This document shows, piece by piece, positions 43,862 through 58,110 of a DNA stretch of 64,000 nt (positions are counted from its first letter, which is position 1; each line of letters begins with the position of its first letter). The stretch spans positions 2,920,501 to 2,984,500 of the forward strand of contig NZ_CP107811.1 of NCBI RefSeq assembly GCF_036346105.1. The letters run 5' to 3'. Origin of the DNA: Streptomyces sp. NBC_00539 (lineage in GTDB: Bacteria > Actinomycetota > Actinomycetes > Streptomycetales > Streptomycetaceae). The notes beneath the pieces were generated by a model. It ran no database searches. It was not told the DNA's origin and saw nothing but the letters and a program-made list of their open reading frames with translations. A program made the translations under genes and the position numbers.

Positions 43862-44511
43862 CAGGCGTCGCTCCCTTCGGTCTCGTCGGCCTTGGGGCCA
43901 GACACGAAGGACTCCAGCGCGGCCTGGGTGAAGACCACGTCGTCAGAGACGATCACGTCGTACGTGTTCAGCTGGCCCGGCTCCAGGATGTGAACCTGGG
44001 GCAGGTTGCGGGCGGACAGCCACGCGGCCTCGTCGGCGCGCTCGACGACCAGGAGCAGGTTCTTGCGCTCCGAGATCTTGCCGAACAGCGTCTTGGCGGC
44101 CTTCGTGGAGGCGGCACCCTCGACCACGCCGGTGACGACGTGGATGCGGGAGTGACGCGCGCGGTCCGAGAGGGCACCGCGGAGGGCGGCGACCTTCATC
44201 TTCTTCGGGGTCCGCTGCGAGTAGTCACGCGGCTGCGGGCCGTGGACGACGCCACCGCCGGCGAACTGCGGAGCGCGGGTGGAACCCTGACGCGCGCGGC
44301 CGGTGCCCTTCTGGCGGTACGGCTTGCGGCCACCACCACGGACTTCGCCACGGGTCTTGGTCTTGTGCGTGCCCTGACGGGCAGCGGCCAGCTGTGCGAC
44401 GACGACCTGGTGGATCAGCGGAACGCTGGTCTTCGCGTCGAAGATCTCCGCGGGGAGCTCGACGGTACCGGCCTTGTCGCCTGCCGGCGAAAGGATGTCA
44501 ATGGTGCTCAT
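43861..44511 (-). CDS. rplD: 50S ribosomal protein L4
   Basis: Exit-tunnel protein and, in enterobacteria, autoregulator of the S10 operon. The 216-residue chain starts [20 protein letters not shown] and has the loop [22 protein letters not shown] 44511 lies five bases after rplC. Confidence 0.97.
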
Positions 44512-44516
44512 TAACC

Positions 44517-45161
44517 TCAAGCCCCCTTGGCCGCGGTACGGACCAGGACGAGGCCGCCGTTCGGACCGGGGACTGCGCCCTTGATGAGGAGCAGACCCTT
44601 CTCCGCGTCTACCGCGTGGATGGTCAGGTTCTGGGTGGTGACGCGCTCGTTGCCCATACGACCAGCCATGCGCATGCCCTTGAAGACACGCCCAGGGGTG
44701 GCGCAGCCACCGATCGAACCGGGGGAGCGGTGCTTGCGCTGCACACCGTGACCGGCGCCGAGGCCCCGGAAGTTGTGCCGCTTCATGACACCGGCGAAGC
44801 CCTTGCCCTTGCTGTTGCCCGTGACGTCGACCTTGACGCCGGACTCGAACACCTCAGCAGTGATCTCCTGGCCGAGCGTGTACTCGCTGGCGTCGGAGGT
44901 GCGGAGCTCCACCAGGTGGCGGCGGGGGGTCACGTCGGCCTTGGCGAAGTGGCCCTTGAGGGGCTTGTTCACCTTGCGCGGGTCGATCTCGCCGAAGGCG
45001 ATCTGGACCGACTCGTAGCCGTCGATGTCGTTCGTACGGACCTGGGTAACGACGCAGGGTCCGGCCTTGACCACGGTCACCGGGACGACACGGTTGTTCT
45101 CGTCCCAGACCTGGGTCATGCCGAGCTTCTCGCCCAGGACGCCCTTGATCTGCTTTGCCAT
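44517..45161 (-). CDS. rplC: 50S ribosomal protein L3
   Basis: Early-assembly protein near the peptidyl transferase centre, 214 residues, [20 protein letters not shown] with [17 protein letters not shown]. Fourteen bases after rpsJ. Confidence 0.97.
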
Positions 45162-45175
45162 CTTCTCGACGCCTC

Positions 45176-45484
45176 TCAGAGCTTGATCTCGATGTCAACG
45201 CCGGCCGGAAGGTCCAGGCGCATCAGCGAGTCAACGGTCTTGGGAGTCGGGTCGAGGATGTCGATCAGGCGCTTGTGCGTGCGCATCTCGAAGTGCTCGC
45301 GCGAGTCCTTGTACTTGTGCGGCGACTTGATGACGCAGTACACGTTCTTCTCAGTGGGCAGCGGCACCGGGCCCGCGACCGACGCACCAGTGCGCGTCAC
45401 CGTCTCGACGATCTTCTTCGCCGAGGAGTCGATGACCTCGTGGTCGTAGGCCTTGAGCCGGATGCGGATCTTCTGTCCCGCCAT
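45176..45484 (-). CDS. rpsJ: 30S ribosomal protein S10
   Basis: Head protein (also NusE, a transcription antitermination partner of NusB), 102 residues, [20 protein letters not shown] to [12 protein letters not shown]. First gene of the S10 operon, starting at ATG 45484, behind a leader of about 390 bases predicted from the promoter at 45880-45907. Confidence 0.98.
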
Positions 45485-45559
45485 GGCTACTCCGTAGTCC
45501 TGTCTGTTGTGGAAACGCTCTGGCTCCCGGGCGGCTGTGGATACCTCCACCGCTTCTCT

Positions 45560-45584
45560 CCGACCCACGCGGTCGGGCGTGTCG
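45560..45584 (-). promoter_or_regulatory. Hairpin motif shared with rpsL leader
   Basis: A 25-base element identical at 24 positions to 59045-59069 in front of rpsL. Its core CCGACCGCGTGGGTCGG can form a six-base stem with a five-base loop in the mRNA, 76-100 bases before the rpsJ start. Confidence 0.6.
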
Positions 45585-45879
45585 CACTCCCTCCAAGAAA
45601 ATTCCCATACGGAAATTCCCTCGTCCAAGGGGGTGCGGTACCGAGACCGCGGTTCGGGGGAGAAACACCCACCGGGTGCCTGGTGGGCCCCGTGCTGACA
45701 CTTCCCGAAAGATTCCCGTACGTCCGCCCCCATTGCTGCCCCGAGGGACAGATAGAGGCGACGAGTACTGTGGGACTCGCTTCCGGTCCTCCCGGCGGGA
45801 GGCGCGCAGCATCGGCACTCAACCGAGCAACTTGAGTAGTCTGCCACACGAGACACGTACTGCGCCAATCGGGCGCAGA

Positions 45880-45907
45880 ACAATACCCCGCCGCGCGGAC
45901 ACGTCAA
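45880..45907 (-). promoter_or_regulatory. S10 operon promoter
   Basis: Minus-strand TTGACG (45907-45902) and TATTGT (45885-45880) with a 16-base spacer. Transcription would start near 45873. Confidence 0.6.
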
Positions 45908-45944
45908 ACCTGCCCCGCGACGGGGAGCCACTGCGGGGCCCGGG

Positions 45945-47144
45945 TCAGGAGCGGGAGACCGTCCCGCACTCCTTCGGCAGCGCCGCCACGTCCTTGCTGC
46001 GGTCGTAGGGATCGGTGAGCGGTCCCGTCGCTCCCGATGACGGCCGGGTCTGCCGGTCGGCCGCGAACATCGGGTGGAGATAGCCCTCGCCGTCGCGGGA
46101 GCAGTCGTCGTTGCCCGCCGACTCGGACCAGCTGACGATCTGCAGCTTGCCGGGAGTCGCCGCTATCCGTTCGGGGTCCGCCAGGGCCACGGTGAGCTCC
46201 CGCCGCACGATGGTGCGCGCCACCTCGTCCGCACCGGTCCGCGCCTGCACCAGCGGGTAGACGAAGGTGTAGTCGGAGTGCACCAGCACCTCACCGGAGC
46301 GGGTGCTGTCGAACCACATGCGCCCGCGCGTCTTGACCACGTCGCCGTGCACCCGCGCGTGCGCCGGATCGAAACGGCTGAACAGCCACAACGGGTCGGC
46401 GTCCTTGGACGGCCGGACCAGAGCCTTCTCCATCAGCCCGCGGCCGTCGTCCTGGAGCGGGTCCAGCAGGTCCAGCGCCGCCTGCGGGCGCTCGCCGCGC
46501 AGGGTGGCGGGCTCCAGATTGGCAGCCGCCAGCAGCCGGCCGGTCTTCGCGACCGCGTCGGCCACCTGCTCCTTGGACAGCCCGCCCACGGCCTTGGCCT
46601 CGGGCAGCTCGATCCCGGCGGCGCCATCGGCCCACTGGAGCGCCGGCGAGCCCCGGAAGGGGTCCTGGAGGGTCGGTTGGTCCGGGTACTGCTGGGCGGG
46701 CGCGGCCGTCGGACGCGCGGTCTCGCCGGGCAGCGGCGCGGCGTTCCGGGCGTCCTTCCTGGCCTCCGCCTTGCCGGTGAGCCGGTCGATCACCAGCTCC
46801 GGCCGTACGGCGATCAGCGCGAGCGCCGCGATGAACACGATGGCCGCGGTCGCCTTGAGCCGCCGCTTGCCCTTCCCGCGGCCTTCCCTCTCCTGCCAGG
46901 CCGGCCCGGTCCGCCATCCGGCGGGCTCGGCTGCCTGCCGGGCCTTGCGGGCCTTGCGCCCCTTCCAGCCCCGCTCCCGCGCGGCCCGCTCCTCGTCCTG
47001 GCGGCGCAGCCGCTCGGTCACCATCCTCGCCCGCGCCGACGGCTCCTTCGGGGCCTCCCCCACCCCGGCCTCGGCGTCCCGCACGAACCGCGCCCACTCC
47101 TCGTCGGAAACGCCGGTTCTGCGCGCGTCGTCGTTGTTCCCCAC
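45945..47144 (-). CDS. Hypothetical single-span membrane protein
   Basis: Unrecognised protein of 399 residues. A charged cytoplasmic N-terminus (about 1-105, Arg/Lys/Glu-rich, with [15 protein letters not shown]) precedes one transmembrane helix ([21 protein letters not shown]). The extracytoplasmic part has a Pro/Ala linker and a soluble domain with [20 protein letters not shown] and two cysteines ([14 protein letters not shown]) that could form a disulfide. I start it at GTG 47144, behind an AAGGGGGGG site; a longer frame to 47285 would overlap the divergent WXG-like gene's upstream region. It shares a 152-base divergent promoter region with the toxin module, so a role with it is possible but unproven. 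Confidence 0.65.
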
Positions 47145-47296
47145 AACGCCCCCCCTTGAGATGTCCACACCATGCGCTGCGGAGCCTCTCACACCCCCCG
47201 GACCAGCCGTTTTCCACCCCCTGACCAAATCCGCACCACCTGGCACCCCCCTGTCCGGGGCGCCGCATACCCTTGCCCGAACCATGGGGGTGGATC

Positions 47297-47920
47297 TTGA
47301 ACGCCGACAACGGCAAAGACCTGGAGATGGACCCGGTCGCCGTCAAAAACATCACGGCCGGCCTGCGCGGGGCGATCGCCGAACTGCGCGAGTTCGCGCC
47401 GGACGCCGGCGCGACGGTGGGAGCCGGGCTCGAAAAGCTCACGCTGACCGGCATGGAGGCCGGCCACCCGGACGTCACCGCCGTCTTCCACGACCTCTGC
47501 ACGCGCTGGGACTGGGGAGTGCGCGCCCTGGTCGAGGAGGTCAGCGGCCTGACCGCCGCGCTGAACATCTCGGCGGGGATGATCTGGGAGGAGGACCAGT
47601 ACCGCAGGGGCACGTTCAAGGTCGCGGCCAACTCCGTGATCGGCAATCCGCACGCCGACGAGGACACGGCCGAGAGGACCTCCTGGGACGAGATCAAGGC
47701 ACCGTTCCGCCACGAGACCCCGGAAGAGGCCCAGAAGGCGCGCGACGAGTTCGGGCAGCAATGGGAACAGGCCAAGCGGGACGCGGTGACGAAGGGCAAC
47801 AGCGCCCGCCTGCTGGACGGAGCGGCCGATCTCGGCCAGCTGGACCCCTCGGCCCTCGCCCTCGTCCGGGAACGGGCGCACCAGGCGGAGCACGACGCCC
47901 CGCAGCAGGGTGAACGCTGA
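47297..47920 (+). CDS. WXG-like small protein upstream of RHS toxin
   Basis: Predominantly helical 207-residue protein. The first ~100 residues are a helical bundle of WXG100 size with WDWG (WxWG) in the middle (CTRWDWGVRALVEEVSGLTA), and the C-terminal half is charged and coiled (EAQKARDEFGQQWEQAKRDA). Such proteins commonly sit beside RHS/polymorphic toxins and can serve as secretion partners. Start is uncertain: TTG 47297 with GGGGG six bases upstream, or ATG 47327. Its stop meets the toxin start directly (TGATG), indicating coupled translation with the RHS gene. Confidence 0.6.
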   Translation: MNADNGKDLEMDPVAVKNITAGLRGAIAELREFAPDAGATVGAGLEKLTLTGMEAGHPDVTAVFHDLCTRWDWGVRALVEEVSGLTAALNISAGMIWEEDQYRRGTFKVAANSVIGNPHADEDTAERTSWDEIKAPFRHETPEEAQKARDEFGQQWEQAKRDAVTKGNSARLLDGAADLGQLDPSALALVRERAHQAEHDAPQQGER

Positions 47921-50900
47921 TGGGGCACGACCTGCAGGGGTGGCTGGACGCCGGTAAAAAGGCCGTCGGCGAGGGCGTCGAATGGGTGGGCGACAAGGCG
48001 GGGGCCGGGCTCGACGAAGTAGGACTCCACGAGGCCGCCGATGTCGTGCGGGACGGCACGGACAAGGTCGCGAACCGTCTCGGCGCGGAGGTCGCAGAGG
48101 CCGAGCTGGGCCACACCGACGACCCGAAGAAGCTGGTCCACGGCAGCCCGTCCAAACTCCGCGCGACCGCCTCCCACTTGGCCGACTTCCAGGCGGCCTT
48201 CGACAAGACCGGCGAGGGCCTCAAGGGCCTGGACGAGGACGGCATCAAAGGTGCGGCCGCCGAAGGCTTCCGGGTGCTCGCCCAGAAGCAGCCGCCGAAG
48301 TGGTTCAAGGCAGCGGACGCCTTCGAGACGGCGGCAGGGGCCCTGAACCGGTTCGCGGACACGGTGGAGTGGGCCCAGGGCCGCGCCCGGGAAGCCCTGG
48401 ACGAGTACACGACCGCCGTGAAGACGTCGCAGGCGGCCCGTGAGGCCTACGACAAGTGGGTCGACACGTACAACGCGGCGCTCCGCAGCAAGCAGGAGCC
48501 GTTGCCGGCCCGTCCGATGGGCTTCACCGACCCGGGGGCCGACGGCATCAAGGCGGCCCGGGAGAAGCTGGCCGAGGCGCGCCACCAGCGCGACGAGGCG
48601 GCCCGGACGGCGGTCCAGGCGCTGACGAAGGCACGGGACGCCGCCCCGCCCCTGCCGTCCGTGGCCGAGCAACTGGTCTACGAGGGGGCCATTCGCGGAC
48701 TCGGGCTGGAACACCAGGGCGGCGGGTTCATCAAGGGGCTGGCGGCCACGGTCGACTTCTTCCGTGCGGTCGACCCCCTGGATCCGTACAACCGCATGCA
48801 TCCGACCGAATACAAGATGCGGCTCAGCGGCCTGGGCGTCGGCATGCTGACGATGGCCAACGATCCCGTCGGGGCCGGTTCCCTGATGTACGTGCAGTTC
48901 ATGAAGGACCCCGACGAGGGGATCGGCAAGATCTATGCCGAGGTCGCCGGGGCGAAGGGGACGAGCGCCGTCACCGGTCCGCTGCGCAGGACCTCCTTCC
49001 TGAGCCGGCTGGCCAACGGCGAACTGCCCAAGCCGCCCAAGCTGCCGCAGCGGCCGGCGTCCGCACACACGCCCTCGACCCGTGAGGCGCTCCACGGGAA
49101 CGAGGGGCCCGGCGCCCGCGAGAAGAAGGACGTCCCGTGCGAGGGGGACCCGGTCGACGTGGCGACGGGCCGGATGCTGCTCCCGCAGACCGACCTCGTC
49201 CTGCCGGGCTCGTTCCCGCTCGTCTTCACCCGGACCTTCGAGTCCTCGTACCGCTCGGGCCGCTGGTTCGGCCCCACCTGGGCATCGACGGTCGACCAGC
49301 GGCTGGAGACCGACGCCGAGGGCGTGATCCTCGTCTGCGAGGACGGAAGCCTGCTGGCCTACCCGCACCCGGAGCAGGCCGGCCCACCCGTCCTCCCCTC
49401 CCACGGCCGGCGATGGCCGCTGACGCTCGACCCGGACGGCGGCTACACGGTCACCGACCCCGAGTCGGGCCACGTACGCCATTTCGCGGAGGACGGCGTC
49501 CTCACCCAGCTGGACGACCGCAACGGCGCCTGGATCGTGTACACGTACGACGACACGACCGGCGCCCCGCTGTCGATCTCCCACAGCGGCGGCTACGAGC
49601 TGCGCCTGACCTCTTCGGGTGGCCGAATAACCGGCCTGTCCCTGGCGGACGGCACCGAAGGCCTGCGCTACGGCTACACGGACGGCCACCTCACCGAGGT
49701 CACCAACTCCTCGGGCCGGCCCCTGCGCTTCGGGTACGACGCACTGGGCCGGATCACCTCCTGGACCGACACCAACGACCGGCGCTTCGACTACGTCTAC
49801 GACGAGCGGCACCGCTGCATCGCCCAGTCCGGTACGAACGGCCACCTCAACATCAGGTTCGCCTACGAGGACGGCGTCACGACGCTCACGGACTCCCTGG
49901 GCCACCGCAAGCGGTACGTGATCAACGAACGCGCCCAGGTCGTCGCGGAGCTCGACGCGGCGGGGCTGACGACGCACTGCGAGTACGACCGGTACGACCG
50001 GCTGCTGTCCCGTACGGACCCGCTCGGCCGCACCGTCCGCCTGGAGTACGACGAGGCCGGCCGCCTCACCTCCGTGACCCGCCCGGACGGCAAGGTCTCG
50101 CGGGCGCGGTACGACGCCTCGGGCCTGCCGGTGACGCTCGTGTCGGCGGACGGCGCGACGACGACCCACACGTACGACGAACGGGGCAACCGCACCTCGA
50201 CGACCGATCCCACGGGTGCCACCACCCACTTCGCCTACGACGCGCGCGGTCACCTGTCCTCGGTGACGGACGCCCTCGGCCACACGAGTGCCTTCGTCTT
50301 GGACCGGGCCGGACTCCTCGTCTCGGCCACGGACCCCCTCGGCGCCACCACCACCTACACCCGCGACGCCTTCGGCCGCCCGGTGACCGTCACGGATCCC
50401 CTGGGCCGTACGACCCGCCACACCTGGAGCACCGAGGGCCGGCTGCTGCGACGCGTGCACCCGGACGGCACGTCGGAATCGTGGACGTACGACGGGGAGG
50501 GCAACTGCCTGACGCACACCGACGCCGCGGGCGGGGTGACCGTCAACGAGTACGGCGATTTCGACCTCCTGACCGCCCGCACCGGTCCCGACGGCGCACG
50601 CCACACGTTCGACCACGACACCGAACTGCGCCTGACGCAGGTCACCAACCCGCAGGGTATGAGGTGGAGTTACACGTACTCCCCCACGGGCCTGCCGACC
50701 TCGGAATCGGACTTCGACGGTCGCAGCCTCACCTACGAGTACGACGCGGCCGGCGCCCTCACCGCCCGCACCGACACACTGGGCGCCCGCACCACCTACA
50801 CCCGCAACGAGCTCGGACAGTTCACCCGCAAGACGACGGCGTCGGGCTCGACGGTTTACGGCTACGACGGCTCCGACCGCTTGGCCTCACTGATCTCGCC

Positions 50901-52467
50901 GGAGTCCTCGGTCACCTGGCTCCGCGACGGGACGGGACGGGTCCTGGCGGAAACGGTCGACGGCCGCACGCTCACCTACGCCTACGACGCCCTGGGCCGT
51001 CGGACGACCCGCACCACGCCCAGCGGGGCGCAGTCCCACTGGACGTACGACGCGGCGGGGCACCGCACCGCACTGACGACGGCCGGTCGCACGATCACCT
51101 TCGAGCGCGATGCGGCAGGACAGGAACTCACCCGCACCCTGGGCCCCGGCCTCGCCCTCACCCACGAGTACGACCCCCTGGGCCGGCTCTCCTCCCGGAC
51201 GGTGGTCGGCCGGGACGGCCGTACCCTCCGGCGCCGGGGCTACAGCTACCGTGCGGACGGCTACCTCACCGGGATCGACGACTCCCTGACCGGCCCGCGG
51301 ACGTTCACCCTCGACGCGGCCGCCCGCGTGACGGCGGTGGACGCCGGATCGTGGTCGGAGCGGTACACCTACGACGAGGCGGGCAACCAGACCCACGCCA
51401 CCTGGCCGGACCGCCACCCGGGCGCCGACGCGCAGGGCGGCCGCTCGTACACGGGCACCCGCATCACCCGCGCGGGGGCGGTCCGCTACGAGCACGACGC
51501 ACTCGGCCGGGTGACCGTGCGCCGCAAGACCCGGCTCTCCCGCAAGCCGGAGACCTGGCGGTACGAGTGGAACGCCGAGGACCAGCTGTCGGCGGTCACC
51601 ACTCCGGACGGCACCCGCTGGCGGTACACGTACGACCCGCTGGGCCGCCGCACGGCGAAGCAACGCCTGTCGCCGGCCGGCGCGGTCGTGGAGGAAACCA
51701 CCTTCACCTGGGACGGCGCCACCCTGTGCGAACAGTCCACCGGCCCGGTCACCCTCACCTGGACCCATCAGGGCCTGCACCCGCTCACCCAGTCCGAGCA
51801 CATCGACGACGACACGGTGGACGACCGCTTCTTCGCCATCGTCACCGACCTCATCGGCACCCCGACCGAGCTCCTCACCGAGGACGGCACCACGGCGTGG
51901 CGCACCCGCGCCACCCTCTGGGGCACCACCACCTGGAACCGCGACGCGACGGCCTACACCCCGCTCCGCTTCCCGGGCCAGTACTTCGACCCCGAGTCGG
52001 GCCTCCACCACAACGTCTTCCGCACCTACGACCCCGAAACGGCCCGCTACCTCACCCCGGACCCCCTGGGCCTCTCCGGTGGCCCGAATCCATGCTGGTA
52101 CGGACCCAACCCGCTGGAATGGGTGGACCCCCTCGGTCTGGCTCTCTGCCGAGCCAAACCGAGGCTGGAAGACGGGAATGCCAAAGAGGGCTGGCAGCAT
52201 ATAGATGAGCGCCACATTACGGGCAATCACCCATCAGGCCACGGAGATTTGATGCCTCCCTCCACGACCAGGGAGCAAGTGGGCGAGGCCGCGGCGAAGA
52301 TGATCGAGAAAGGCAATCGCGTGTCTGACCCAAGCCGCCGAATGCAGGTATTTGAGAAACGTATGACTGTCAACGGCATGCCCGCCCGCTATCGCCTGCT
52401 CGTGGACTCACACGACGGGAACCGGATCATCACCTTCTTCCCCGTCGGAAAGAGCTACGTCCCGTGA
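47920..52467 (+). CDS. RHS-repeat polymorphic toxin
   Basis: Giant protein of 1515 residues. The N-terminal ~400 residues are helical and alanine-rich (WVGDKAGAGLDEVGLHEAAD; YDKWVDTYNAALRSK). A DUF6531-like start of the RHS shell follows (CEGDPVDVATGRMLLPQTDL at 407; FTRTFESSYRSGRWFGPTW), then some 30 YD repeats (forms of GRxxxxxYD, about 500-1370) that build the toxin cocoon. The RHS core ends RYLTPDPLGLSGGPNPCWYG and VDPLGL (1402-1407). The last ~108 residues are a different, locally less GC-rich tip that is probably the toxin, with HIDERH (His1427, His1432) and STTREQV. The fold may be a BECR-type ribonuclease, but this is a guess. Confidence 0.88.
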   Translation: MGHDLQGWLDAGKKAVGEGVEWVGDKAGAGLDEVGLHEAADVVRDGTDKVANRLGAEVAEAELGHTDDPKKLVHGSPSKLRATASHLADFQAAFDKTGEGLKGLDEDGIKGAAAEGFRVLAQKQPPKWFKAADAFETAAGALNRFADTVEWAQGRAREALDEYTTAVKTSQAAREAYDKWVDTYNAALRSKQEPLPARPMGFTDPGADGIKAAREKLAEARHQRDEAARTAVQALTKARDAAPPLPSVAEQLVYEGAIRGLGLEHQGGGFIKGLAATVDFFRAVDPLDPYNRMHPTEYKMRLSGLGVGMLTMANDPVGAGSLMYVQFMKDPDEGIGKIYAEVAGAKGTSAVTGPLRRTSFLSRLANGELPKPPKLPQRPASAHTPSTREALHGNEGPGAREKKDVPCEGDPVDVATGRMLLPQTDLVLPGSFPLVFTRTFESSYRSGRWFGPTWASTVDQRLETDAEGVILVCEDGSLLAYPHPEQAGPPVLPSHGRRWPLTLDPDGGYTVTDPESGHVRHFAEDGVLTQLDDRNGAWIVYTYDDTTGAPLSISHSGGYELRLTSSGGRITGLSLADGTEGLRYGYTDGHLTEVTNSSGRPLRFGYDALGRITSWTDTNDRRFDYVYDERHRCIAQSGTNGHLNIRFAYEDGVTTLTDSLGHRKRYVINERAQVVAELDAAGLTTHCEYDRYDRLLSRTDPLGRTVRLEYDEAGRLTSVTRPDGKVSRARYDASGLPVTLVSADGATTTHTYDERGNRTSTTDPTGATTHFAYDARGHLSSVTDALGHTSAFVLDRAGLLVSATDPLGATTTYTRDAFGRPVTVTDPLGRTTRHTWSTEGRLLRRVHPDGTSESWTYDGEGNCLTHTDAAGGVTVNEYGDFDLLTARTGPDGARHTFDHDTELRLTQVTNPQGMRWSYTYSPTGLPTSESDFDGRSLTYEYDAAGALTARTDTLGARTTYTRNELGQFTRKTTASGSTVYGYDGSDRLASLISPESSVTWLRDGTGRVLAETVDGRTLTYAYDALGRRTTRTTPSGAQSHWTYDAAGHRTALTTAGRTITFERDAAGQELTRTLGPGLALTHEYDPLGRLSSRTVVGRDGRTLRRRGYSYRADGYLTGIDDSLTGPRTFTLDAAARVTAVDAGSWSERYTYDEAGNQTHATWPDRHPGADAQGGRSYTGTRITRAGAVRYEHDALGRVTVRRKTRLSRKPETWRYEWNAEDQLSAVTTPDGTRWRYTYDPLGRRTAKQRLSPAGAVVEETTFTWDGATLCEQSTGPVTLTWTHQGLHPLTQSEHIDDDTVDDRFFAIVTDLIGTPTELLTEDGTTAWRTRATLWGTTTWNRDATAYTPLRFPGQYFDPESGLHHNVFRTYDPETARYLTPDPLGLSGGPNPCWYGPNPLEWVDPLGLALCRAKPRLEDGNAKEGWQHIDERHITGNHPSGHGDLMPPSTTREQVGEAAAKMIEKGNRVSDPSRRMQVFEKRMTVNGMPARYRLLVDSHDGNRIITFFPVGKSYVP

Positions 52468-52898
52468 TCGTGGAATTTGCCGTTCGACCGGGTCAGGGCG
52501 AGTCCAGTGGGTTCGATCTCGGGGACATGGTCTGGGTCGGCGAGCTGGGGGAAGCGCGGTCGGCGGGGCAGTCGCCCGATCAAGGGATGATGATCTACGC
52601 CTCGGTGACCCAACTCCTGGACTGCCTGCACGACTTGCTGCGAGGCCGAACAAGGAGTGCCTTGTTCACGGGCGTGGACTCCTCGTTCCGGCTGACATTC
52701 GCCAGGAGCAAGAAGGGCATCCGCACCACCGGCCCGTCCGGTCCCGTCTCGATCCTCGCACCCGACGAATTCGCGGGGACCGTTCTTGCAGCGGCGGAGG
52801 AACTGGCACGCACGCATCTCGGCTCCCTGCCCTCCGACGGCGTGGCAGACGACTATCGGGCCGCCCTTGAGGGCTTCAGGATCCTGGTGGCGCCATAG
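52464..52898 (+). CDS. Probable immunity protein for the RHS toxin tip
   Basis: Unrecognised 144-residue protein. GTG 52464 overlaps the toxin stop (GTGA), the usual place and coupling for a cognate immunity gene, which protects the producer from its own toxin. It has a GESSGFDLGDMVWVGELG start and a helical second half (DEFAGTVLAAAEELARTHLG). No signal peptide or membrane segment, consistent with neutralising a cytosolic toxin. Function is inferred from position only. Confidence 0.65.
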   Translation: MIVEFAVRPGQGESSGFDLGDMVWVGELGEARSAGQSPDQGMMIYASVTQLLDCLHDLLRGRTRSALFTGVDSSFRLTFARSKKGIRTTGPSGPVSILAPDEFAGTVLAAAEELARTHLGSLPSDGVADDYRAALEGFRILVAP

Positions 52899-52944
52899 AG
52901 TCGCCCCGAACAGATCAAGCAATTCCTCAGAGAGGCTTATAAGC

Positions 52945-53226
52945 GTGGATGAACGTAACGACGTCCGGCTACACGTGGCGTCGGTCGAGAGCGCTTCCGC
53001 GACAGAAGCCGTCTGCGCGGTCAGGAACATCGGCGGGGAGGCGAGCGTAGGCATGATCTTTCGATCAAGCGTTTCCCCCGCCATCGAGATTCGCATCACC
53101 GAGATCCTTCGGTACGGACGATCCGTTCCCATCTTGGACCAGGCCTATACGGCAAGGGTGACCTTCATCGGGCCTGGGGCCGCCGGAATCGAAGCTGGGG
53201 AAACCCTGGTCAGCGCCCGGGATTAG
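52945..53226 (+). CDS. Small hypothetical protein after immunity gene
   Basis: Unrecognised 93-residue product starting at GTG 52945 with GAGAGG nine bases upstream. Strand-rich sequence (VRLHVASVESASATEAVCAV, IEIRITEILRYGRSVPI) and a closing TARVTFIGPGAAG. It may be a second immunity protein or an orphan left by tip exchange. Its upstream spacer (CTTATAAGC) is AT-rich for this genome. Confidence 0.5.
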   Translation: MDERNDVRLHVASVESASATEAVCAVRNIGGEASVGMIFRSSVSPAIEIRITEILRYGRSVPILDQAYTARVTFIGPGAAGIEAGETLVSARD

Positions 53227-53373
53227 GAGACCCACCGCAACGCGGGGGCCGCGATGCGGTGGGCCGGGGGGTGGCGGGGTGAGAGGTAGGGGTGAGTACT
53301 CGGGAAGCGAAAGAACCTCGCCAGACCCCACCAGCCTCCCGTCGGGGGCGCTTCGCTCGGATGGGTGAATCGG

Positions 53374-53427
53374 GACAACTCGGCTGGCTTCCCCGGGGGT
53401 TGTCGGGCATATGCTCGGCGCGACAAC
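53374..53427 (+). promoter_or_regulatory. GACAAC half-site cluster upstream of DNA-binding gene
   Basis: The 279-base gap 53227-53505 has no gene. It contains GACAAC (53374-53379), GTTGTC (53400-53405) and GACAAC (53422-53427), three alternating half-sites able to form two palindromes, upstream of a winged-helix-like gene. Autoregulation is possible. A TATGCT -10-like hexamer (53410-53415) lies between them. Confidence 0.4.
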
Positions 53428-53505
53428 TCCAGACATACGTCGGCCCCCGACGGGACTCGCAATCCCGGCGGGGGCCTGGCCAAGCAGGAAGAGAACAGCT
53501 TCCCG

Positions 53506-54453
53506 ATGGATACCCAGAAGCCTAACCCCGTCGTGCTCGCCTCCGGGCGCAATCGCGGCGATGCCCCCCGATCAGGTGTCATCCACGTCAACGTCCGGCA
53601 CACCCGCCGCTTCACCGTGGTCGGCAACCACCTCGCGCAGCACGCGGAGATGTCCCTCGTAGCGATCGGTCTGGCGCTCCACATCCAGTCCCTGCCCGCC
53701 GGCTCACGCATCGGCATCAAGGACCTCGCCGGCCGCTTCCCCGAGAGCGAGCACCGGATCGCCCGTGCGCTGCGCGAGCTGGAGGCTTACGGATACCTGG
53801 AGCGGACCCGCGTGCGGCTGCCCGGCGGGCAGGTGATCACCCGGACCGTGTCCTACAACCGCCCCGGGTGCGTGGACAGCGACCCGCACCCCGGCCCGGA
53901 CCCGCATCCCGGCCCGGCGCCCGCCGCCCAGGCCCCGCCCGCGACCACCCCGGCCGCCGCCGCGCCGGAGGCCCGCGCCCCTCAGCCGCCCGCCACCCCG
54001 CGCGCTCCCGGCGGGTCCCTCCCCCGGCCCCTGAACCCCGACAACCCCTGGCGGCACGAGGCGGCCGTCACCGTCCTGACGGACCTGCGCCGCCTCGACT
54101 CCCGTCTCCTGCTCGGCCGGCAGGACATCGAGCGCCTCGCCCCCGCCGTCGAGGCCTGGCTGGAGCGCTGCGCCCGCCCCGGCAGCATCACCGCCGCCCT
54201 CACGGCCAACCTGCCGCCGCAGCCCCGCAATCCGGCCGGACTGGTGGCGTACCGGCTCACCGCCCAGCTGCCGCCGGCCCTGGCAGACGTACCCCGCCCG
54301 GCCGCCCACGTACCGCCGGACCCCTTCCAGACCTGCGAGGACGAGACCTGCGGCCTCGCCTTCCGGTCCCGGGAGCCGGGCCTGTGCGGGGAGTGCCGGG
54401 CGGAGGCGGGCGGAGGCGGGCGCCGCATGAGGACCGTGACGCGCCCCGCATAG
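53506..54453 (+). CDS. Winged-helix-like DNA-binding protein
   Basis: Protein of 315 residues of a kind common in Streptomyces. N-terminal helix-turn-helix region (about 20-110): HTRRFTVVGNHLAQHAEMSL, a SRIGIKDLAGRFPESEHRIA recognition segment and RALRELEAYGYLERTRVRLP wing. A Pro/Ala linker (about 125-180) follows, then a helical domain and a C-terminal cysteine cluster (CEDETCG, GLCGEC) able to bind metal. It likely regulates transcription; targets unknown. ATG 53506 is used; the ribosome site is weak. It converges with tuf. Confidence 0.72.
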   Translation: MDTQKPNPVVLASGRNRGDAPRSGVIHVNVRHTRRFTVVGNHLAQHAEMSLVAIGLALHIQSLPAGSRIGIKDLAGRFPESEHRIARALRELEAYGYLERTRVRLPGGQVITRTVSYNRPGCVDSDPHPGPDPHPGPAPAAQAPPATTPAAAAPEARAPQPPATPRAPGGSLPRPLNPDNPWRHEAAVTVLTDLRRLDSRLLLGRQDIERLAPAVEAWLERCARPGSITAALTANLPPQPRNPAGLVAYRLTAQLPPALADVPRPAAHVPPDPFQTCEDETCGLAFRSREPGLCGECRAEAGGGGRRMRTVTRPA

Positions 54454-54547
54454 GCACCGGGGCATAGCCACCGGGGTAGGCGCCGCATACGCACCCGGCC
54501 GGGACGTCCCCGCACAGCAGCCGGCAACGCCCCGCGGATACGACGAA

Positions 54548-54587
54548 GGGCCCTTCCCCCACCGCCGGAGCGGTGGGGGAAGGGCCC
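54548..54587. terminator. Bidirectional terminator, tuf and DNA-binding gene
   Basis: Perfect 17-base stem (54548-54564 with 54571-54587) with a six-base loop between the convergent genes. Confidence 0.85.
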
Positions 54588-54638
54588 CTCTGTCAAACGT
54601 GGTGCCCGCTCGCGCGAGCTACCAGGTCAGAGCACGAA

Positions 54639-55832
<1,194 letters not shown>

Positions 55833-55983
55833 GGGGGTCCTCCTGGAGAGTGGTTCTGGTACGCCTGACAGATCGGCGCCAGGTGATCTTTGCTGGGATG
55901 CCAGTCCCTCCGGGCAACAAGAGCGGATGCTCCTGTTGCCCCAGAGGTACCGGTGACAAGCCTAAAGCGTGAGCTCCGAAGAG

Positions 55984-58110
55984 TTACTCGCCCTTGGCCT
56001 TCGCGATGATCTCCTCAGCGACGTTCCGGGGAACCTCGGCGTAGGAGTCGAACTGCATCGAGTAGCTGGCGCGACCCGAGGTCTTGCTGCGGAGGTCTCC
56101 GACGTAGCCGAACATCTCCGAAAGCGGCACGAGGCCCTTCACGATGCGAGCACCGTGACGCTCGTCCATGGCCTGGATCTGGCCACGACGAGAGTTGATG
56201 TCGCCGATGACCTCACCCATGTAGTCCTCGGGCGTGGTGACCTCAACGGCCATCATCGGCTCAAGGAGCACGGGAGAAGCCTTGCGCGCGGCCTCCTTGA
56301 AGGCCTGCGAACCGGCGATCTTGAACGCGAGTTCGGAGGAGTCGACCTCGTGGTAACCACCGTCGAGAAGAATGACGCGGACGCCAGTCATCTCGTAGCC
56401 GGCGAGGATGCCGAACTTCATGGCTTCCTGGGCACCGGCGTCCACCGACGGGATGTACTCACGCGGGATGCGTCCACCGGTGACCTTGTTGACGAACTCG
56501 TAAGCCGCCTCGCCGCCCTCGATGGGCTCGATCGCGATCTGCACCTTGGCGAACTGACCGGTACCACCGGTCTGCTTCTTGTGGGTGTAGTCGTGACGCT
56601 CGACGGACTTGCGGATCGTCTCGCGGTAGGCCACCTGCGGCTTGCCGACGTTCGCCTCGACCTTGAACTCGCGACGCATGCGGTCGACGAGGATGTCGAG
56701 GTGAAGCTCGCCCATACCACCGATGATGGTCTGGCCGGTCTCCTCGTCCGAGTGAACCTGGAAGGAGGGGTCCTCCTCCGCGAGACGCTGGATGGCAACA
56801 CCCAGCTTCTCCTGGTCACCCTTGGACTTGGGCTCGATGGCGACCTGGATGACCGGGGCCGGGAAGTCCATGGACTCCAGGATGACCGGGGCCTTCTCGT
56901 CGCACAGCGTCTCACCGGTGGTGGTCTGCTTGAGGCCCATGACGGCGACGATGTCACCGGCGCCCACCGACTCGATCTCCTCACGCTTGTTCGCGTGCAT
57001 GCGGTAGATCTTGCCGATGCGCTCCTTCTTGCCCTTGACGGAGTTCAGCACCGCGGTGCCGGCCTCCAGGCGACCGGAGTAGATCCGGACGAAGGTGAGC
57101 TTGCCGAGGTGCGGGTCGCTCGCGATCTTGAACGCGAGGGCCGACAGCGGCTCGGAGTCGGCCGGCTTGCGCTTGACGACGACCTCCGCGTCCTTGACGT
57201 CGTGGCCTTCGATGGCCTCGACGTCCAGGGGGGAGGGAAGGTAGCGCACGACGGCGTCGAGCAGGGGCTGGACGCCCTTGTTCTTGAACGCGGTGCCGCA
57301 GAACACGGGGGTGACGGTGGTGTCGCCGCCCTTGCCGGACGCGATGGTGATACGACGGACGGCGGCGTAGAGCTGCTCCTCGGTGGGCTCGGTGCCCTCC
57401 AGGAACAGTTCCATCATCTGCTCGTCGTTCTCGGCGACCGTCTCGACCAGCTTGGCGCGCCATTCCTCGGCGGCCTCGGTGTGCGAGGCGGGGATGTCGA
57501 CGACGTCGTACATCTCGCCCTTGGAGGCCTCGGCGGACCACACAAGAGCCTTCATGCGGACCAGGTCGACGACGCCCTGGAAGTCCATCTCGGAGCCGAT
57601 GGGCAGCTGCATGACGATCGGGGTCGCGCCGAGGCGGTCCACGATCATGTCCACGCAGCGGTGGAACTCGGCGCCGGTACGGTCCAGCTTGTTGACGAAG
57701 CAGATGCGCGGCACGCCGTAACGGTCGGCCTGACGCCAGACCGTCTCGGACTGCGGCTCCACACCGGCGACACCGTCGAAGACGGTGACGGCACCGTCGA
57801 GGACGCGGAGCGAACGCTCGACCTCTACGGTGAAGTCGACGTGACCCGGGGTGTCGATGATGTTGATGGTGTGGTCGACCTCGTCAAGAGGCCAGTGGCA
57901 GGTCGTCGCGGCAGACGTGATGGTGATACCACGCTCCTGCTCCTGCTCCATCCAGTCCATCGTGGCAGCGCCGTCGTGGACCTCACCGATCTTGTACGAC
58001 ACACCGGTGTAGAACAGGATGCGCTCGGTGGTGGTCGTCTTGCCCGCGTCGATGTGGGCCATGATCCCGATGTTGCGGACCTTGGCCAGGTCAAGCGAAG
58101 TGGTAGCCAT
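55984..58110 (-). CDS. fusA: Elongation factor G
   Basis: Translocase GTPase, 708 residues, with [17 protein letters not shown] and NKLDRTG, and the domain IV/V segments to the end [11 protein letters not shown]. Thirty-nine bases after rpsG, in the str operon. Confidence 0.98.

Follow-up and report, generated by a model that had tools for sequence, protein, structure and literature searches.

The locus described here, an RHS polymorphic toxin module, lies in a 64,000-nucleotide stretch of Streptomyces sp. NBC_00539 (contig NZ_CP107811.1, positions 2,920,501 to 2,984,500; hereafter the window). Its closest described counterparts include the Tox-EndoU/BECR ribonuclease (RNase) tips (PF14436; PMC3482391), the Rhs toxin LrhA of a Listeria type VII secretion system (T7SS), the T7SSb (PMC10327511), Rhs1 of Serratia (PMC10539506) and the CdiA-CT/CdiI pairs (PDB 6cp9, 7m5f, 4ntq, 5hkq). 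Polyimmunity loci are already in print (PMC3482391). The searches made in the open-licence literature brought up no dedicated study of T7SS-type RHS toxins in Streptomyces.

With the Tox-EndoU tips, the present tip family shares conserved His/His and Ser/Thr residues, a weak profile match and a predicted fold that may be BECR-like; the difference is that the window's own tip lacks the PF14436 match. The immunity proteins given for Tox-EndoU are Imm-SUKH, Imm-SuFu and Imm28 (PMC3482391), and the 144-amino-acid (aa) protein found here matches none of them by Pfam. LrhA is comparable in being an Rhs toxin linked to a T7SS; a probable immunity gene goes with it, as do small accessory genes. It is encoded beside essC, whereas the RHS gene of the window sits between ribosomal operons at a great distance from either EccC locus, and its putative machine is an actinobacterial T7SS. 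Serratia Rhs1 provides the parallel of a natural exchange of C-terminal tips with an orphan immunity gene at the locus, but its carrier belongs to a type VI secretion system and its tips are NADases, as opposed to the T7SS_signal-type carrier and RNase-like tip of the window.

The window probably contains a T7SS-targeted RHS polymorphic toxin operon, with a BECR-fold RNase tip, a 144-aa immunity protein, exchange of tips and a left-over 93-aa gene. The WXG-like protein and the T7SS_signal domain would bring the RHS protein to one of the two T7SS machines of the genome, and the RHS repeats would form a shell around the C-terminal tip. The tip, a predicted BECR-fold, EndoU-like ribonuclease, would enter a competitor cell and cut its RNA, while the 144-aa protein would bind the tip and protect the producer and its kin. 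Tips would be exchanged by recombination just past the DPxGL motif and old immunity genes would remain, the 93-aa gene being probably one of these. The module is composed of the following features.

47297..47920, + strand: small WXG-like protein of 207 aa, presumed to serve the RHS protein as T7SS partner/chaperone; TTG start
47920..52467, + strand: RHS polymorphic toxin, 1515 aa, ATG start; TGATG overlap with the WXG-like gene
47938..48657, + strand: T7SS_signal domain (putative type VII secretion signal), RHS residues 7-246; Pfam PF21725, E 3.3e-88
52144..52464, + strand: C-terminal toxin tip, RHS residues 1409-1515 (~107 residues); predicted BECR/EndoU-like ribonuclease
52464..52898, + strand: 144-aa gene, putative cognate immunity, GTG start; GTGA overlap with the RHS gene
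52945..53226, + strand: 93-aa gene, probable orphan immunity gene left by another tip, GTG start

The four genes that a first-pass annotation had placed as a module between two ribosomal operons are all present at these coordinates, with rpsJ, tuf and fusA as flanks. Its description of a polymorphic toxin was also borne out, by the RHS/YD repeats, the RHS-associated core and the variable tip. RHS_repeat covers 19 stretches of the RHS protein (Pfam, E 4.9e-93), DUF6531 residues 409-481 (Pfam, E 3.9e-24) and Rhs_assc_core residues 1333-1407 (E 2.7e-22); as profile matches, these domains are far above chance. Between the window and its relative G078, 88, 63 and 212 differences fall on codon positions 1, 2 and 3 over 1408 RHS codons. 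The RHS frame is thus judged to be coding, because the differences concentrate on third positions. A decaying remnant without present function is, for this reason, very improbable: relics of the window's tip do occur in G174 and G078, but here the RHS frame is open across all 1515 codons and the substitutions are mostly third-position ones.

A scan of genome contigs with the tip yielded 18 loci (17 near full-length, one partial): nine from Streptomyces, one from Amycolatopsis, one from a Myxococcaceae metagenome-assembled genome (MAG), three from Pseudomonas and one each from Gilliamella, Achromobacter, Variovorax and Parachitinimonas. Behind the tip, a homologue of the 144-aa gene was found in 18/18 loci by a profile of which 14 of the 18 were members and four were not, and in 17/18 by single-sequence tblastn, which missed Gilliamella. 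Furthermore, the distances among tips correlate with those among 144-aa proteins (Mantel r 0.78, p 0.0001, 15 pairs), also within groups (0.88 in seven Streptomyces, 0.92 in seven Proteobacteria): the two proteins co-diverge. At the level of gene pairing and co-divergence, the earlier suggestion of a coupled immunity gene thus appears well founded.

The 144-aa gene also occurs away from the tip. Homologues are present in 25 of 393 same-genus genomes, four of them with a full tip. Around 19 of the 21 others, stretches of 4.6-8 kb hold no full tip and a single tail relic (G302, E 0.008); in four of the 19 (G293, G336, G011, G148), the immunity profile itself matches weakly or in part. The remaining two, G174 and G078, carry tail relics of the tip. 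In G033 and G302, one gene separates the homologue from a preceding RHS gene that bears a different tip. The plasmids gave one record of this immunity protein, from Streptomyces. A sequence search of the PDB with the 144-aa protein returned 37 rows, mostly glucocorticoid receptors (E 0.0079-1.2), which were rejected because a 15-member profile of the protein gave none. The tip/immunity pair is small, its 144-aa member has no Pfam family, and the pair is amenable to expression tests.

An exchange of tips is best seen in G078. This genome is 90% identical in DNA to positions 45146-52142 of the window, up to the DPLGL motif; the next match begins at 52395. Positions 52395-52900, comprising the end of the tip and the 144-aa gene, are 79% identical, and those from 53229 to the end of the compared stretch 88%. 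For the 93-aa gene, G078 shows no match here; its position is taken by a 110-aa gene that matches Pfam CdiI_3 (E 1.8e-12). The order in G078 is: RHS gene with another tip, 106-aa gene, tip relic, intact 144-aa homologue (74% identity) and 110-aa gene. The relic corresponds to the last 23 residues of the window's tip (tblastn, E 2.8e-5).

Since the RHS gene is the same, with another tip and neighbour, a relic and an intact 144-aa homologue, a replacement with retained immunity is proposed for G078. The simplest reading of these sequences is that the window's tip once stood at this locus in both lineages and was replaced in G078, where the old immunity gene was kept; the direction of the exchange is inferred. 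The locus may thus catch a tip exchange between related Streptomyces genomes. Two points speak against this part of the interpretation: the relic was missed by the tip profile at E 0.01, and the argument relies chiefly on one relative. The label "ADP-ribosyltransferase-like", considered for the G078 tip and for tips preceding some 93-aa homologues, was discarded as evidence, as no Pfam family was found in either.

Within the genus, the window's tip is rare. The search of the 393 genomes gave seven genomes at E ≤0.001, with a full-length tip in four (G000, G318, G246, G277) and a tail fragment in G174. The matches in G016 (E 6e-4; a 52-residue tblastn match) and G230 (E 8.5e-4; no tblastn match) were dismissed as chance, as neither had a profile match and both frames read as unrelated proteins. 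The tip is patchy within the genus yet recurrent across several phyla. In Streptomyces, the N-termini to which it is joined are of at least three types: T7SS_signal (the window, by Pfam; G318 and L059, by tblastn), a DWHVLDLDKDPTPGDP-like one (G246, G277) and WXG100_2 (L058, Pfam E 1.3e-10). In the Myxococcaceae MAG (L067, 4930-6303), the same tip is borne by a 457-aa carrier without an RHS-core match, whose start looks lipoprotein-signal-like by eye. The plasmids gave one tip record, from Oscillatoria, 51% identical over 78% of the tip and part of a HINT-domain protein.

Comparison of the predicted structure of the tip with known structures gave 11 best rows that include four entries of contact-dependent inhibition (CDI) toxins, one BrnT and several of MqsR/RelE type. 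These CDI toxins, MqsR and RelE are counted among the BECR-type RNases. With a limit of E 1, EndoU_bacteria (PF14436) matches were obtained in 9 of the 18 members of the tip family, the best at 5.5e-4. Together, these weak matches and the position of the model near CDI-toxin entries and BrnT suggest that the tip is a BECR-fold ribonuclease. The BECR fold consists of an N-terminal helical segment followed by a four-stranded meander, and the Tox-EndoU residue pattern is H, H, [SNT], [SNT] (PMC3482391). The residues H19, H24, S61, S89 and T97, invariant in the tip family, are consistent with this pattern.

It must be set against the RNase assignment that the EndoU and fold matches are weak, that the count of nine depends on the limit of E 1 and that the window's own tip matches no Pfam family at E ≤1, EndoU_bacteria included. 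The tip could then be a different nuclease or another enzyme within the same toxin/immunity logic. The weakness of the Pfam matches, the low-confidence region of the tip model and the possibility that a single fold supports several activities would favor this alternative. It is nevertheless considered unlikely, although less so than the other alternatives weighed here, as several top structural rows are RNase toxins (BrnT by title, CDI, MqsR and RelE presumably) and the invariant residues fit the Tox-EndoU pattern. The BECR-fold RNase is the preferred assignment. Against Pfam, NCBIfam and PADLOC, the tip, the 144-aa and the 93-aa proteins gave no family. Scattered matches in one to three relatives to NCBIfam (NuoB, others) and Pfam (TetR_C_41, Antiterm, LPD3, others) were regarded as chance, and by sequence, the PDB matched the tip only at the RHS junction, with two chance rows for the tip profile.

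The 93-aa gene seems to have another origin. Homologues occur in 24 of 150 genomes, own genome included. In L096, L100 and L090, they follow tips of one common type (in L090, the tip is in a frame separate from the RHS core); in L091, another tip precedes a 227-aa frame whose final part is the homologue, and in L084, the homologue stands one gene beyond yet another tip. Roughly eight belong to a larger conserved protein encoded at other places (six frames measure 249-254 aa and two exceed this); around others, the inspected stretch shows no RHS tip. In L085, L086, L089, L092 and L101, the conserved 249-254-aa protein consists of the 93-aa domain with a second domain after it and stands behind a gene that resembles, by eye, one for an acetyltransferase; in G268 (L105), a domain that looks similar to the second one is encoded by a gene of its own.

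Judged by its sequence relatives, the 93-aa gene probably represents an orphan immunity gene that belonged to another tip. The first-pass annotation had counted it in the module; it is in place, but it probably does not belong to the cognate pair. The gene could also be a second cognate immunity gene or a functional partner of this tip, since only 46 bases separate it from the 144-aa gene, which precedes it in the same orientation, and since a homologue of it adjoins a 144-aa homologue in G268. We give this little probability, because the gene was not found with this tip at the other loci searched, while its homologues stand behind unrelated tips. The idea of an EF-Tu mimic was rejected: blastp of the 93-aa protein gave nothing against the window's EF-Tu and, at best, E 3.0 against EF-G.

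WXG-like homologues (34-92% identity) directly precede five genes that share the RHS N-terminus of the window from about residue 9-16, namely the RHS genes of G318, of another locus of the same genome (7.02 Mb), of G078 and of L059, and a gene for a non-RHS protein in G013. A W[DE]WG motif is conserved among them. The WXG-like profile was positive in five of 27 loci, which are its own members, and in no others. The genome contains two EccC and two EccD genes above the cut-off, near 2.06 and 4.21 Mb; the search for EccC-like genes proposed with the first annotation thus had a positive outcome. The best guess, from sequence, is that the RHS protein is exported by a T7SS.

Other results tell against this route. 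Neither a Pfam match nor the W-x-G tripeptide expected of a WXG100-family partner was found in the WXG-like protein, and L062, with an N-terminus 30% identical from residue 68, has no WXG-like homologue. YxxxD/E is the export motif of ESX substrates; it was found neither in the WXG-like protein nor in RHS residues 1-260. Of the "WXG-like partner" first proposed, the partner gene is confirmed with this N-terminus in five loci, but the signature is W[DE]WG instead of W-x-G. The RHS protein might leave otherwise, for instance through lysis of the cell or loaded into a contractile injection system. One phage-sheath-family gene in the genome and the missing export motif would be in keeping with this route, but it is rather improbable in view of the T7SS_signal match (a family whose own description says "putative"), of the WXG-like partner in the five loci and in none of 22 others searched, and of the Listeria Rhs toxin gene beside essC (PMC10327511).

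The search for further RHS loci in the same genome gave additional RHS-repeat genes at 0.44, 7.02 and 7.04 Mb of contig 1 and on contig 2. The one at ~7.02 Mb (L034, 5414-10641) is a second locus with a WXG-like protein and a T7SS_signal-type RHS protein, its N-terminus being 51-53% identical; the tip is unrelated to the window's and is followed by a 164-aa gene.

The genes surrounding the module are listed below.

45176..45484, - strand: rpsJ, flanking the module
45945..47144, - strand: SCO2583-like membrane protein gene, a neighbour outside the toxin module; NF052260 match, E 3.9e-30, below the cut-off
54639..55832, - strand: tuf, flanking the module
55984..58110, - strand: fusA, flanking the module, beyond tuf

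From the positions of rpsJ and tuf/fusA, the module sits in the rpsJ-tuf gap, 9154 bases long in the window, and is transcribed in the opposite sense to both ribosomal operons. The gap had been suspected to be a variable spot, and it is one: across the window's genome and 20 more (21 in total, with six picked for holding RHS there), the shortest gap has 482 bases (G064) and the longest exceeds the 19.9 kb fetched. Of 81 genomes, rpsJ was found in 80; seven of these have RHS/T7SS_signal-type places no more than 20 kb away from it, eight places altogether and every one towards tuf. Such genes are not fixed core content. A random spread of the 142 places (second pieces of genes already entered left out) would give 0.67, assuming 8.5 Mb genomes and independent places, and the comparison serves as a guide because the places were found with the window's own N-terminus and related genomes are not independent.

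The contents of the site differ. The tips of the RHS genes of G040, G009, G027 and G024 are, by eye, unlike one another and unlike the window's, that of G040 being a PIN domain (Pfam). G009 has two such places near rpsJ, with tuf beyond the fetched stretch, and the gap of G013 (L039, 15973-18390) encodes a T7SS_signal-type protein that lacks RHS repeats and carries another C-terminal domain. In G246, outside the 80, the window's tip is found on another RHS type beside rpsJ. A weak RHS-core match in G044, 15-18 kb from rpsJ and 25% identical, was not counted.

We give roughly even chances to a broader interpretation, that Streptomyces repeatedly uses the rpsJ-tuf gap as an arming site for T7SS-type toxins whose tips keep changing and that leave growing immunity arrays, and that the tip/144-aa pair is an unnamed RNase/immunity family moving between actinobacterial T7SS-type and Proteobacteria RHS carriers. 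The toxins exchanged there, amid the most highly conserved chromosomal genes, would be of both RHS and non-RHS type. The spot is a simple place for finding more such toxins in any Streptomyces assembly.

The membrane protein, which resembles the SCO2583 family, had been proposed as an accessory. Homologues of its gene (E ≤0.001) exist in 81/81 genomes. By a count that covered 26 of the homologue rows, no more than 6 kb separates the gene from rpsJ in at least 17 genomes, of which G000 and G078 alone have the RHS gene there. Because it adjoins rpsJ without RHS in at least 15 other genomes, it is a neighbour and the accessory role is abandoned. No tRNA that could serve as an insertion target is found in 44000-56000. 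A terminator and promoter scan gave three against 3.0 expected and one against 0.3 expected, the latter on the opposite strand behind rpsJ. Between the 93-aa gene and tuf, an open frame of up to 315 aa (53506-54453, + strand), without a Pfam match, has a counterpart in G078; by eye, we take it to have the look of a helix-turn-helix regulator.

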